Positions 24,770 to 50,958 of a stretch of DNA of 64,000 bases are shown piece after piece. The position numbers were made by a program, and so were the translations under genes. Every line of letters begins with the position of its first letter. Position 1 is the first letter of the stretch. The stretch spans positions 1-64,000 of the forward strand of contig NZ_PABT01000040.1 in assembly GCF_002699205.1 (NCBI RefSeq), in the 5' to 3' direction. The notes below the pieces were generated by a model that searched no databases, had not been told where the DNA came from, and was given only the letters and a program-made list of their open reading frames with translations. This DNA is from Allomuricauda sp. Its GTDB lineage: Bacteria > Bacteroidota > Bacteroidia > Flavobacteriales > Flavobacteriaceae.

Positions 24770-24795
24770 TGTAACAATTTTCGATATGTATCGTC
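24770..24795 (+). promoter_or_regulatory. Predicted ECF sigma promoter (class TGTAAC-N16-CGTC), site A
   Basis: TGTAAC at 24770-24775, a 16-nt spacer, then CGTC at 24792-24795, 50 nt upstream of the ECF sigma start. The architecture resembles known ECF promoters (AAC-containing -35 and CGT-containing -10, as for Bacillus SigX/SigW). The same elements with the same spacing occur at 50302-50327 and 50540-50565. The position fits autoregulation by the downstream sigma factor. Confidence 0.7.
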
Positions 24796-24845
24796 GTGAT
24801 AGTGTAGGTCGATAACAAAGGCTGAAAAATTACTGAGACAACCAA

Positions 24846-25355
24846 ATGAAACAAACAGAATTTTTAAATGTGGTTTTGCCCTTTCAGGATAAGCTTTACA
24901 GGTTGGCAAAGCGCCTGTTGGTTTCCAAGGAAGAGGCTGAGGATGCCACACAGGAAATTTTGTTGAAGTTATGGTCCAAGAACGAGTCCATGGACAAATA
25001 CAAAAATGTAGAGGCTTTTGCCATGACCATGACCAAAAACTTTTGTTTGGATCGTTTAAAGTCCAAACAAGCTGGAAACCTCAAATTGGTTCACAGTAAC
25101 TACAAGGACGAAAATACCTCTTTGCAAAAACAATTGGAGGTTGAGGACAGCGTAAGTTGGATGGAACGGATTATGGAGGGACTACCAGAACAGCAAAAAA
25201 TGATATTGCAACTGCGGGACGTGGAGCAGTATGAGTTTGATGAGATATGCGAACTCATGGAAATGAAACCTACGGCGGTTCGTGTAGCATTGTCGAGGGC
25301 AAGAAAAACAGTAAGGGAAGAATTAATAAAAAAACATAACTATGGAATTGGGTAA
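24846..25355 (+). CDS. RNA polymerase ECF sigma-70 family factor
   Basis: 169 residues. Region 2 is FQDKLYRLAKRLLVSKEEAEDATQEILLKLW (here FQDKLYRLAKRLL and EEAEDATQEILLKLW, residues ~15-46) with VEAFAMTMTKNFCLDRLK, and region 4 is LPEQQKMILQLRDVEQYEFDEICELM with the recognition helix MKPTAVRVALSRARKTVRE. The next gene overlaps by 14 nt and encodes a single-pass membrane protein in the anti-sigma position, followed by two DUF4252 proteins. A predicted ECF promoter lies 50 nt upstream, suggesting positive autoregulation. Confidence 0.93.
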   Translation: MKQTEFLNVVLPFQDKLYRLAKRLLVSKEEAEDATQEILLKLWSKNESMDKYKNVEAFAMTMTKNFCLDRLKSKQAGNLKLVHSNYKDENTSLQKQLEVEDSVSWMERIMEGLPEQQKMILQLRDVEQYEFDEICELMEMKPTAVRVALSRARKTVREELIKKHNYGIG

Positions 25356-36989: not shown

Positions 36990-37016
36990 GACGACAATTT
37001 TCCAAATTAGGTTACA
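36990..37016 (-). promoter_or_regulatory. Predicted ECF sigma promoter (class TATGTAACC, N17), site C
   Basis: On the minus strand TGTAAC occupies 37016-37011 and CGTC 36993-36990, a 17-nt spacer. The extended block TATGTAACC is identical to that of site B on the other strand, with the same distance to CGTC. Expected transcription start near 36983, about 40 nt before the DUF6249-like ATG. Confidence 0.7.
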
Positions 37017-37040
37017 TAATTTCAGAAATATTGTTTTTTA

Positions 37041-37067
37041 TGTAACCCAAACGACACTTTTGGCGTC
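37041..37067 (+). promoter_or_regulatory. Predicted ECF sigma promoter (class TATGTAACC, N17), site B
   Basis: TGTAAC at 37041-37046, 17-nt spacer, CGTC at 37064-37067. The ATG of the ECF sigma gene is only 9 nt further on (37077), so the mRNA would be leaderless or nearly so. It forms a divergent pair with site C, 25 nt apart. Confidence 0.7.
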
Positions 37068-47715: not shown

Positions 47716-47745
47716 AAAACCCCGATCCTTTAGGATCGGGGTTTT
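47716..47745. terminator. Bidirectional Rho-independent terminator
   Basis: AAAACCCCGATCCT (47716-47729) pairs with AGGATCGGGGTTTT (47732-47745); each end is T-rich on its own strand. It ends the KAS III gene and the convergent receptor gene. Confidence 0.92.
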
Positions 47746-47799
47746 TGATTGATGCCCCCATAAGGTAACCAACACTCAAATATGTGGCATCAATATTTC

Positions 47800-50250
47800 T
47801 TAAAGGATACCACCGCCGCTTTGTTTGGTATTGTTGTCCCTTCTTTTACGTTGTTTGGCGCGGTTTTTTCCACTTCCAAATCGGTACGATAGACCAACGT
47901 AAACATTATTGCTCTCCCAATTGAAAGCACCTTCTTGTGCGTATGGGTAATCTCCTTCGAATGCAAAGCGCATGGTATTGAAAATATCGTTATAGTTAAA
48001 ACTTAAAGTACCCTTGCCCTCAGCAAAACTGTATCGAGCTCCCAAATTCACAAAATACATGGGGTCTGCATCAAACTGAATGCTTTTGTTTCTTCCTCGG
48101 TAAAACCCAAAAGCTTGCAGGGTCAATTTTTTGGTTACGGTAAAGCTATTGTTCATTCTGAGGTTCCACGCCGTGTTATCTACCTTTACCCTTTCTTCTA
48201 AAATATCGTCCTCGCTTGGGTTGGGGTCTGTGGTGTTCAATATCTCTGTGAGCCCTCTTTGTGTCTGTGAAAAAAGGTCGAAACTACCATTAATGCTCCA
48301 CCATTTTATAGGTTTGTAATTGGCGGATAGTTCAATTCCATACGCGGATGTGTCGTCAAAATTATCATAGGTCAAAATAGTTTTGTTCAAATCCAATCTA
48401 TCCACATAGACCGCTCTATTGATTTCGTCGGAAATACTTCTGTAGAAAACACCTCCGGTAATGCTTCCATTTTTGATTCTTTTCGTGTAATTGGCCTCAT
48501 AAGAACTCGTAAACTGAGGGACGAGGTTTGGGTTTCCAAAAGATGAGATCAGAGGTGTGGCAAATTCCCGAATAGGGTTTACCTGTTGTAGTCCTGGTCT
48601 ATCCACACGTCTGCTATAGCTAATTTGTAGCTGGTCTTTTTCATTTGGTTTATAAGTAACGAATGCGGAGGGATATATTTCGGTATACTTGTCGGTAAAG
48701 GCACGTACGGCATTGGTGTCGGCCTTCACCTGTACATCTTCGATGCGAACACCCACTTGGTAGGACCATTTCTCATAGGATTGACCAAAAGTGGCATAAG
48801 CGGAATAAATATCCATATCGTAGATAAATTTTGTAGATGGTATGGAAACCAGTTCTCCGTTGGAGTTGTAGGATTGCCCAGTTGAGGCGTAATCCACATC
48901 GGTCTCAAAATTTCTTGATTCCAGTCCTATTTCCAGTTTGGAAATGCTGTCCAACGGGTTTACGTAATCCAGATTGGTGGTGGTCTGTGTTCTTTCAGTG
49001 TCCACAAAATCCATGTAATCAGGATATAGGGAAGCCCCTACCGAACTAAAGTCTGCATCTTCATTGCTATTGTAGCGGTTATGGTCTACTTCGAGCTCAA
49101 TATTGTGGCCTTCTTTTGCAAATTCAAGTTTATAATCAAAATTATATTGCTCACTTAAATTATCGGAAATGTTGGTCGTGTATTGGGTCACATTTTGAGA
49201 AGGTTCATCCAAGTAATTTACCTTGGTTTTACCATATCCTTTGCCATCGTAGGTATTTTGGTTGGTAAAGAAGGAAATGGTGTTTTTGTCGTTCAGGTAA
49301 AAATCCACCCCCAATTTATACAGATGGGATTTATTGTTATTGTTGAAATCAAATATTTGGAGGGAATTTTCATCTATTCTTAAAATGCTCCCATCGTTGA
49401 CCCATTTACCAATATTGTTTCCATAATTTCCGTAAAAGTTGAATTTTCCATTTCGGTAGTTCAAGTCTATTGAACTATTGAATTTGGCCTCGATACCTTT
49501 GGTAAGTCCCATGTTCACATTTCCATTAAAACCAATATTTGCGTTTTTGTGCAATACAATGTTGATGATTCCGCTCATGCCCTCTGGGTTATATTTGGCG
49601 GATGGGTTGGTGATCAGTTCTATGGATTTTATGGCCGTGGAGGGAATTTGCTTGAGCAGCTGGGCCACAGGTACGTTGGACAACTTGCCGTCTACCATTA
49701 CCCTTACATTCGAATTTCCACGTAGGGTAATATCACCTGTCTGTGCATCAACATTCACAGAAGGGATGTTGTTCATGATATCGGAAGCCGAAGCACCTGC
49801 GGTGGTAAGGTCTTTCCCTACATTGATTACCTTTCTGTCCACTCGCTGTTCTATAGTGGTGCGTTCGGCTACCAGTTCCACTCCTTCCAACTCTTTGGTT
49901 TCTTCCTCCAAGGTCACGGTTCCAATATTCAAGTTGCGTTTTCCTTTGGCGATCACCAATTTTTGTGAATACGTTTTGTACCCAATGAACTGTACTTCAA
50001 AAATAAAAGTGCCATCGGGCAGTTCCTTTATTTCAAAACTTCCATCATCATTGGTTATGCTTCCGGTGATGGTCTTTGTGCCATCCTCGGACTTTATTAC
50101 CACGGCCGCATAGGGTACAGGTTGATTGGTAAGATTGTCAACAACGTTTCCATTGATGGAACCCAATGCGTTTTCGGGGTCGTTGGCAAAAGATATAAAA
50201 TGGGATATGGTGCACAGGAACAGTGCAAAAAGTAAGTTTACTTTTTTCAT
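47800..50250 (-). CDS. TonB-dependent receptor with carboxypeptidase-like domain, outer-membrane beta-barrel family
   Basis: 816 residues. The signal peptide ends around FISFAN (~22); residues ~30-115 form a carboxypeptidase regulatory-like domain (GNVVDNLTNQPVPYAAVVI, GSFEIKELPDGTF, VEFIGY-like), followed by the plug (SASDIMNNIPSVNVD, LRGNSNVRVMVDGK, IELITNPSAKYNPEG) and a barrel of the OMP_b-brl_3 type. The C-terminus has a basic, Gly-rich tail after the last strand (RAKQRKRRDNNTKQSGGGIL). Two ECF-type promoter motifs lie upstream on its strand, so it is a predicted ECF sigma target. The substrate is unknown. Confidence 0.9.
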   Translation of the reverse strand: MKKVNLLFALFLCTISHFISFANDPENALGSINGNVVDNLTNQPVPYAAVVIKSEDGTKTITGSITNDDGSFEIKELPDGTFIFEVQFIGYKTYSQKLVIAKGKRNLNIGTVTLEEETKELEGVELVAERTTIEQRVDRKVINVGKDLTTAGASASDIMNNIPSVNVDAQTGDITLRGNSNVRVMVDGKLSNVPVAQLLKQIPSTAIKSIELITNPSAKYNPEGMSGIINIVLHKNANIGFNGNVNMGLTKGIEAKFNSSIDLNYRNGKFNFYGNYGNNIGKWVNDGSILRIDENSLQIFDFNNNNKSHLYKLGVDFYLNDKNTISFFTNQNTYDGKGYGKTKVNYLDEPSQNVTQYTTNISDNLSEQYNFDYKLEFAKEGHNIELEVDHNRYNSNEDADFSSVGASLYPDYMDFVDTERTQTTTNLDYVNPLDSISKLEIGLESRNFETDVDYASTGQSYNSNGELVSIPSTKFIYDMDIYSAYATFGQSYEKWSYQVGVRIEDVQVKADTNAVRAFTDKYTEIYPSAFVTYKPNEKDQLQISYSRRVDRPGLQQVNPIREFATPLISSFGNPNLVPQFTSSYEANYTKRIKNGSITGGVFYRSISDEINRAVYVDRLDLNKTILTYDNFDDTSAYGIELSANYKPIKWWSINGSFDLFSQTQRGLTEILNTTDPNPSEDDILEERVKVDNTAWNLRMNNSFTVTKKLTLQAFGFYRGRNKSIQFDADPMYFVNLGARYSFAEGKGTLSFNYNDIFNTMRFAFEGDYPYAQEGAFNWESNNVYVGLSYRFGSGKNRAKQRKRRDNNTKQSGGGIL

Positions 50251-50301: not shown

Positions 50302-50327
50302 GACGACCGATTCTTATGAATGTTACA
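50302..50327 (-). promoter_or_regulatory. Predicted ECF sigma promoter (TGTAAC-N16-CGTC), site D
   Basis: On the minus strand TGTAAC is at 50327-50322 and CGTC at 50305-50302 with a 16-nt spacer, matching site A. The expected start near 50294 would leave a ~44-nt leader before the receptor ATG. Confidence 0.68.
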
Positions 50328-50424
50328 GAAAGAGTTTATTTTAACACTCTTTAACATTGCAGTGTTGTAAAATATCCAATGTTGTAAGGTGTCCTGAATT
50401 TGTCAGACAATTAAGAAGGAATAT

Positions 50425-50458
50425 AAAAAGAAGAAACCCCGGTAAAAATACCGGGGTT
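50425..50458 (-). terminator. Rho-independent terminator within the divergent region
   Basis: AACCCCGGTA (50435-50444 on plus) pairs with TACCGGGGTT (50449-50458), loop AAAA. On the minus strand the stem is followed by TTTCTTCTTTTTAT, a good U tract; on the plus strand it is not. It lies between two divergent genes, where neither gene needs a terminator. Confidence 0.8.
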
Positions 50459-50532
50459 ATACATTGATAAGCTATACTAAACACTAACCATTAACTATAA
50501 AAATACAGTCTTACCAATGACAATAAGTTATA
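50425..50532 (-). ncRNA. Predicted small RNA or attenuated leader upstream of the receptor gene
   Basis: Bounded by ECF promoter site E and by a Rho-independent terminator at 50425-50458. Length would be about 105 nt. It contains a 17-codon frame (ATG at 50464-50462 on the minus strand) that runs through the hairpin; translation is not supported otherwise. Could be a regulatory sRNA or, if the terminator is leaky, a long leader of the receptor mRNA. The intergenic region is 50251-50598, and apart from these elements I see no gene in it. Confidence 0.45.
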
Positions 50533-50539
50533 ACAAATA

Positions 50540-50565
50540 GACGAGTATCTTTATAAAAAGTTACA
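50540..50565 (-). promoter_or_regulatory. Predicted ECF sigma promoter (TGTAAC-N16-CGTC), site E
   Basis: On the minus strand TGTAAC is at 50565-50560 and CGTC at 50543-50540 with a 16-nt spacer, as in sites A and D. The expected start near 50532 is ~74 nt before the terminator stem. Confidence 0.66.
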
Positions 50566-50598: not shown

Positions 50599-50958
50599 AT
50601 GCACAAAACACTTGTCGTAGGGGCTTCTACAAACCCGGGAAGATACAGTAACACAGCAATTCGTAGGTTGGTTGACAATAATATTGAAACAACCGCATTT
50701 GGGATACGTGGGGGAACTGTATCAGGTGTCGAAATTAAGAATAAATTGTATGATTTTCAAAATATTGACACGGTAACTTTATACTTGAGCCCAAAAAATC
50801 AAGAAGCATATTATCAACAGATCGTAGATCTACATCCCAGACGGGTAATTTTTAACCCGGGAACCGAAAATCCAGAGTTCTACAAAATCCTTGAGGATGC
50901 TGGTATTCAAGTAGTAGAGGCCTGTACTTTGGTCCTGCTTGCTACGGGGCAGTATTGA
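50599..50958 (+). CDS. CoA-binding (YccU-like) protein
   Basis: 119 residues, close to the minimum CoA_binding Rossmann domain: [20 protein letters not shown] at the start, [24 protein letters not shown] and [13 protein letters not shown]. Small proteins of this type bind CoA or NAD and function is mostly unknown. The stop overlaps the convergent symporter gene by 17 nt. It faces away from the receptor gene, so its own promoter lies between 50566 and 50598. Confidence 0.88.

Follow-up and report, generated by a model that had tools for sequence, protein, structure and literature searches.

The minus strand of the 64,000-nucleotide stretch of DNA analysed here (the window) carries an intrinsic terminator between two promoters, upstream of a TonB-dependent receptor gene, and the question is which transcript this terminator ends. 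The first-pass annotation had proposed an 'ECF-controlled small RNA or attenuated leader' at this place. We find that the element is very probably a free-standing small RNA that belongs to an ECF sigma regulon. The distal promoter (site E, GTAACTTTTTATAAAGATACTCGTC; minus strand, 50540..50564), identified by motif scan and conservation, and the proximal promoter of the receptor (minus strand, 50302..50326), identified by motif scan, are both ECF-type GTAAC-N16-CGTC elements with identical spacing. The receptor, an 816-aa protein of the OMP_b-brl_3 type, starts at 50250 (minus strand, 47800..50250), and a divergent CoA_binding_2 gene (plus strand, 50599..50958) is the usual neighbour of the small RNA. 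Just as the annotation had described, site E is followed on the same strand by a perfect 10-bp hairpin and a U-rich tract before the next promoter. This terminator (minus strand, 50435..50458), recognized by terminator scan and covariation, reads AACCCCGGTA-TTTT-TACCGGGGTT at 50458-50435 and then TCTTCTTTTT; its U-rich tail (50434-50424) is present on the minus strand only. With its end taken from the terminator and its start assumed to lie 7–10 nt after the CGTC of the promoter, the RNA would occupy 50424..50533 of the minus strand and measure about 105–110 nt, in agreement with the length of about 105 nt first proposed.

The promoter motif, unlike the terminator, is above chance in the window. 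GTAAC-N15..18-CGTC occurs five times in the window against 0.72 expected, and none of 100 shuffles reached five. A terminator scan of the whole window returned 11 against 10.0 expected, which is not above chance; by itself, the hairpin is therefore weak evidence. The 116-nt stretch at 50425-50540 is predicted to fold at −34.5 kcal/mol; its shuffles average −17.6 kcal/mol, and none of 200 folded as well (z = −5.9). The fold is far better than the shuffles because of a second, longer hairpin upstream of the terminator, which was absent from the first-pass annotation. This hairpin 1 (minus strand, 50462..50519; CATTGGTAAG/CTTATCAATG plus CTGTA/TATAG, with an A bulge) is supported by the predicted fold and by covariation, and it bears a loop, GTTAATGGTTAGTGTT (minus strand, 50480..50495), that is near-invariant in alignments and is the proposed pairing region.

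The window also holds a possible regulator. An ECF sigma factor gene (plus strand, 24846..25355) has the same GTAAC-N16-CGTC motif before it (24771-24795), which suggests that this unit (24771-25355) regulates itself, and its product is a candidate driver of the small RNA. Two GTAAC-N17-CGTC motifs lie on opposite strands at 36990-37067, and the one on the plus strand precedes a gene resembling another, putative, ECF sigma factor. ECF sigma factors are numerous in Bacteroidota. For Flavobacterium psychrophilum, the available text of PMC9723704 gives seven.

Conservation within the genus is, on sequence comparison, what we regard as the decisive evidence that the element is real. A DNA search recovered the region in all 35 other genomes of the genus, at 76–93% identity, and gave no comparable score in 23 genomes from the order's other families. 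A core 15-mer is present in 40/40 genus genomes (reversed control, 0). Of 36 aligned genus loci, 26 have the strict ECF motif at the distal promoter and 35 have it at the proximal one; the promoter–hairpin pair, on whose presence in related genomes the annotation had staked its proposal, is thus conserved. The alignment shows almost no variation in the region of hairpin 1 and paired mutations in the terminator stem, such that 99.9% of cells are paired under the stated structure. All five pairs with two-sided changes fall in the terminator (five of its nine scored pairs), and hairpin 1 has a single varying pair, GU to AU. The loop can also be read in frame, as ATG GTT AGT GTT TAG, with the start and stop codons visible in the genus. 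A small coding gene is nevertheless almost certainly the wrong reading, since the stop codon is not retained outside the genus and the third positions of the codons are no less fixed than the others.

The RNA extends through much of the family Flavobacteriaceae. A covariance model built from 36 sequences, which matches the window at 50426-50535, found matches in 124 of 299 family genomes and 103 of 236 genera, a count that includes at least one false match (a weak in-family hit, in G189, that lacks the loop). The exact loop 15-mer, GTTRATGGTTAGTGT, occurs in 140 of 298 family genomes and 115 of 236 genera, against five genomes for the reversed pattern, although these 140 genomes need not all have the RNA and a few may owe the match to other copies. 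The family consensus of the loop is GTTRATGGTTAGTGTT. Ten further places with the 15-mer comprised six copies in metal clusters, two intragenic sites, one complement in a sense leader and one ordinary RNA locus. Loci taken from the contig scan were chosen by their loop, so that loop identity among these, as in the matches listed, is no evidence. An RNA that keeps its loop nearly constant in roughly half the genera sampled from so large a family is probably a core regulator.

The annotation had suggested a covariation search in related genomes, and the signal that appears in the terminator within the genus appears in both helices across the family. Among 52 homologues, 13 of the 15 pairs of hairpin 1 changed on both sides somewhere, with 91.9% of cells paired, as did eight of the nine scored terminator pairs. 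Together, 21 of 24 pairs and 191 cells have two-sided changes, a level reached by none of 500 shuffles and compared with 14–35 cells when the structure was slid along the alignment. A cleaner 49-row set, from which one sister RNA and two weak rows were removed, yielded 171 cells and led to the same conclusion. Because both alignments had been fitted to the covariance model, they lean toward its structure. Read from these alignments, compensatory mutations appear to rewrite the stem across the family while the loop hardly changes. Beyond the family, matches in 11 genomes from a class-wide search of 395 (E 1.7e-4 to 9.9e-4) were rejected as terminator look-alikes, because the matched stretches lack the loop. 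The TTAATGGTTAGT motif is doubled in a stretch of Sphingobacterium phlebotomi (L198:6427-6550), found through a 19-mer match and scoring only 24.6 bits among the matches listed; this stretch also has a terminator-like hairpin and is possibly a distant relative.

The first-pass annotation left open whether the element is an RNA of its own or the leader of the receptor, in which case transcription from site E would stop at the hairpin, as in an attenuator or riboswitch, unless read-through were allowed. The terminator is there for such a device, and the receptor lies downstream on the same strand in the same order in 84 of 180 distinct loci (208 loop loci minus 28 duplicates). In 65 of the 180, by contrast, fabH comes next and no receptor adjoins the RNA, and in 12 the RNA lies behind a homologous receptor, as its 3′UTR; the remaining 19 are short or of other kinds. 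A plain receptor leader is excluded because the RNA so often has no receptor beside it or stands behind one. Beyond the terminator, 35 of 36 genus loci also have a separate ECF motif for the receptor. The stem of the terminator varies while the core upstream of it stays fixed (the alignment being judged by eye), which makes a conserved antiterminator partner unlikely. The leader half of the original proposal is therefore largely refuted, and we hold it to be very unlikely. The small-RNA half stands, with promoter, structure and terminator all conserved.

Of 160 distinct regions upstream of the RNA, 113 contain the strict ECF motif, with a spacer of 16 in 111 of the 113, compared with a mean of 0.15 and a maximum of two for shuffled upstream regions. 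(The set was reduced from 188 to 160, with L138, L198, L289, L290 and ten 3′UTR loci set aside.) Forty-seven regions lack the strict motif, and 35 of these also lack a relaxed one. Where fabH is the neighbour, 44 of the 65 loci keep the strict motif. In the lineages in which the RNA is a 3′UTR, GTAACA-N16-CGTC begins 65–92 nt before the start codon of the receptor in 10/10 examined, so ECF control appears to be kept despite the changed position. One locus (L138) has a short receptor region without a receptor match and retains the RNA and a sister RNA, together with an ECF motif recognized by eye. Taken together, these patterns suggest that the RNA is for the most part governed by an ECF-type promoter, be it before or behind the receptor. 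Such a move between a promoter-driven gene and a 3′UTR, with ECF control kept, would be a clean natural example of the relocation of an RNA.

What the small RNA acts on is a separate matter. The annotation had suggested that it might tune receptor expression, and for direct pairing this idea fared poorly: of the 64 receptor leaders of this genome, that of the adjacent receptor is predicted to pair least strongly with the loop. Across all 64, for which start codons were chosen by script and which cover receptors only, not all outer-membrane proteins, the mean duplex energy with the loop was matched by 42 of 200 shuffled loops. We therefore rejected receptor leaders as general targets, their pairing being no better than that of shuffled loops.

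Wider searches for complements of the loop showed a shift in location and no rise in number. With one mismatch allowed, a 13-mer complement matched this genome 12 times, counting the RNA locus, and its reversal 15 times, which is no excess. In 40 genus genomes, complements with up to one mismatch gave 68 sites, 40 of them the RNA locus itself; the other 28, ten of which are loop-sense copies, compare with 19 for the reversal, again without enrichment, and no target with 15/16 matches recurs through the genus. Twenty of the 28 were fetched, and five were examined separately (L069, L071, L075, L076 and L119). The 20 divide into nine sense sites at most about 60 nt upstream of a start codon, four intragenic sites, two more distant ones and five loop-sense copies. 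With these five copies, which lie in metal clusters (four hairpins and L366, whose form is unclear), left out, sense-leader sites make up 9 of 15; the reversed pattern has 2 such sites among 19 (Fisher p 0.0035). Eight of the 15 qualify by the ORF rule, and the ninth (L381) does so only after its start codon was reassigned by hand; the p value is 0.0098 with eight, and 0.017 when the orthologous pairs (L372/L373 and L370/L371) are also collapsed. The complementary sites are thus shifted to leaders, a preference to be read against the facts that leaders are A/C-rich anyway and that the reversed pattern is one control only.

Several individual sites are candidate targets. Five of the nine downstream genes look, by eye, exported or lipoprotein-like. 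In a genome of another genus, which itself carries the RNA, a 16-nt stretch perfectly complementary to the family loop lies 10 nt before the ATG of a 424-aa gene (L471, G349:C6:173703; the sense-leader complement among the ten further 15-mer places), which makes this gene a candidate target. In this genome, up to two mismatches in 16 gave seven distinct places beside the RNA and two metal-cluster copies. Five of the seven were judged: one sense leader (L482), one site just inside a coding start (L483), two intragenic sites and one simple repeat. A short tandem repeat of ACCATTA units in this genome (L484, G000:C48:54985-55021) gives four overlapping pattern matches. At another locus (L111), AAACACTAACC immediately precedes the ATG of a gene of 500 aa resembling an ABC exporter; by sequence, L111 and L482 are weak candidate targets in this genome.

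The strongest single candidate for a pairing partner is the gene of a 33-aa single-span membrane protein conserved in some sister species. At loci encoding this MNTIEAKLGYLFWYAVIALSVYSLLSSIYLYIS-like microprotein (L067, L068, L070, L072, L073, L074, L077 and L078), a 17–19-nt perfect complement to the RNA lies at the stop codon in 8/8 examined and is followed by a terminator-like hairpin. The predicted duplexes, at −36 to −48 kcal/mol, lie below all 200 single-base shuffles made for each. The open reading frame changes mostly synonymously, with 17 of 33 codons showing synonymous changes only and ten changing the amino acid. This association raises the possibility of a toxin–antitoxin or sponge relation, and of a small RNA that is, in the main, a trans-encoded antitoxin-like RNA whose principal partner is the microprotein mRNA. 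In addition to the stop-codon complements and their duplexes, it speaks for that assignment that 13 of 40 genus genomes contain the exact 15-mer a second time (eight of the 13 examined; reversed control, 0). Against it, the remaining 27 genus genomes, including this one, contain no second exact copy of the site's 15-mer core, the RNA itself is family-wide, and the eight loci are related to one another and were found through the match itself. We therefore judge an antitoxin-like main function to be quite improbable.

The free-standing small RNA also appears to have relatives. In the 3′UTR of the receptor, a sister RNA candidate (minus strand, 47716..47793) comprises a hairpin (47793-47749; TTGATGCC/GGCATCAA) and a terminator (47745-47716). 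Its loop, which is related to that of the first RNA, is GAGTGTTGGTTACC in the window, a shorter form, and TGTTGGTTGGTTA, conserved, in the six genus relatives examined; the first hairpin of the sister is in the predicted fold of five of seven sequences. Further sibling hairpin–terminator units follow a CGTC box at L284:1876-1988, L272:1007-1118, L273:1377-1479 and L275 (about 1320-1414), of which L272, L275 and L284 are receptor-3′UTR lineages. Upstream of the units in L284, L272 and L273 the box is, by eye, GAAAT rather than GTAAC, and may belong to another ECF factor.

Copies of the loop occur outside these RNAs as well. The sequence GTTGATGGTTAGTGTTA or a variant is found in the sense direction (L115, L119, L362-L365, L465, L467, L469, L470, L472 and L474), mostly on GGGAAGG/CCTTCCC-like hairpin arms that differ from the hairpin of the RNA. 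These copies stand behind small exported genes in metal-resistance-like clusters of several genera; the one small exported protein tested matches DUF3347. Our guess is that the metal-cluster hairpins mimic the loop.

Such copies bear on whether the loop is an antisense seed at all. It could instead be the site of an RNA-binding protein, with the RNA serving as a sponge that sequesters the protein. A loop that is invariant without one dominant target, that recurs on unrelated hairpins in metal-cluster 3′UTRs and that shares GGTTGGTTA-like motifs with the sister loops would fit a protein site. On the other hand, complementary sites prefer sense leaders, and one microprotein mRNA has a 17–19-nt perfect complement. 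A protein-binding site rarely needs 16 fixed bases, which we also counted against this alternative. We consider a protein site unlikely, and pairing of the loop with mRNAs the better account.

For the free-standing small RNA, we propose the following course of events. An active ECF sigma factor would use the twin promoters to transcribe the small RNA and the neighbouring TonB-dependent receptor. The RNA would fold into two hairpins, a stem displaying the nearly fixed 16-nt loop and then the terminator. Most likely it would act in trans, its G/U-rich loop pairing with A/C-rich complements near start codons or in 3′UTRs, and this pairing would change the translation or stability of the target mRNAs. 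Comparison of the loci supports the structure of the RNA, its conservation, its association with the promoter and its independence from the receptor; we infer its transcription, its drive by an ECF factor, the pairing of its loop with mRNAs and its choice among them. A search for Hfq (PF17209) gave no match in this genome, which is 95% complete, and was positive in 5 of 14 control genomes; small-RNA regulation could thus be tested in a genome without detected Hfq. The flavobacterial group is described, in the available text of PMC9723704, as lacking Shine–Dalgarno sequences.

A broader reading would join all of these observations. It would comprise a Flavobacteriaceae-wide set of sibling ECF-regulon RNAs with related G/U-rich loops, clustered round one TonB-dependent receptor and passing between a gene with its own promoter and the receptor 3′UTR with ECF control kept. 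Their Hfq-free, nearly invariant loop would be engaged by the membrane-microprotein mRNA (over 17–19 nt) and by metal-cluster 3′UTR hairpins that mimic it, maybe as decoys. As a whole, we regard this combination as possible and tentative.

Among the closest known systems are trans-acting RNAs of Enterobacteria. In these bacteria, MicA and RybB are sigma-E-dependent, an ECF promoter driving a short terminator-ended RNA. The small RNA has the same arrangement, an ECF-type promoter before a short terminator-ended RNA, here read from sequence alone. Enterobacterial sigma-E sRNAs pair by their 5′ end, whereas the proposed pairing region here is a hairpin loop. In Rfam there was no match at the gathering score, and a low threshold gave only sub-gathering matches, the top family being MicC at 27.2 of 90 bits; by this comparison, the small RNA seems to belong to none of the MicA, RybB and MicL families. 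It further differs from them in belonging to another phylum, in the failure to find Hfq in this genome and in that receptor mRNAs are unsupported here as general targets. Another parallel lies in the trans-encoded type I toxin–antitoxin systems zor/Orz and shoB/OhsC, in which the mRNA of a hydrophobic peptide has about 18–19 nt of complementarity to a separate RNA. The microprotein mRNA resembles these in encoding a small hydrophobic peptide and in its 17–19-nt complement, in sister species only; it differs in that the partners are not adjacent, the microprotein partner exists in some species only and toxicity is hypothetical.

The position of the RNA recalls other classes. Like 3′-end-derived sRNAs, its homologue forms the receptor 3′UTR in the 12 loci described above, in which the receptors examined carry the ECF motif; unlike them, in most loci it has its own promoter and either precedes the receptor or has no receptor adjoining it, and in the window it is not a 3′UTR. 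MicL, as described in the available text of PMC9438474, depends on sigma-E and is transcribed from a start within another gene, and by analogy the small RNA may work like such an ECF-driven sRNA. In a literature search, four forms of the loop sequence matched only an unrelated mouse RNA, and no flavobacterial ECF-linked sRNA was found beyond F. psychrophilum. From that species, the available text of PMC9723704 describes Rfp11, a putative regulatory RNA whose ECF-type promoter class has CGT as its −10 box, and Rfp18, a conserved structured sRNA that is needed for precise protease expression and is predicted to pair via its third stem-loop. Going by these descriptions and not by sequence, the small RNA resembles Rfp11 in its link to an ECF-type promoter and differs from Rfp18 in having two hairpins where Rfp18 has a third stem-loop. 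Within the text available, the Rfp RNAs of F. psychrophilum are the nearest published case that we found.
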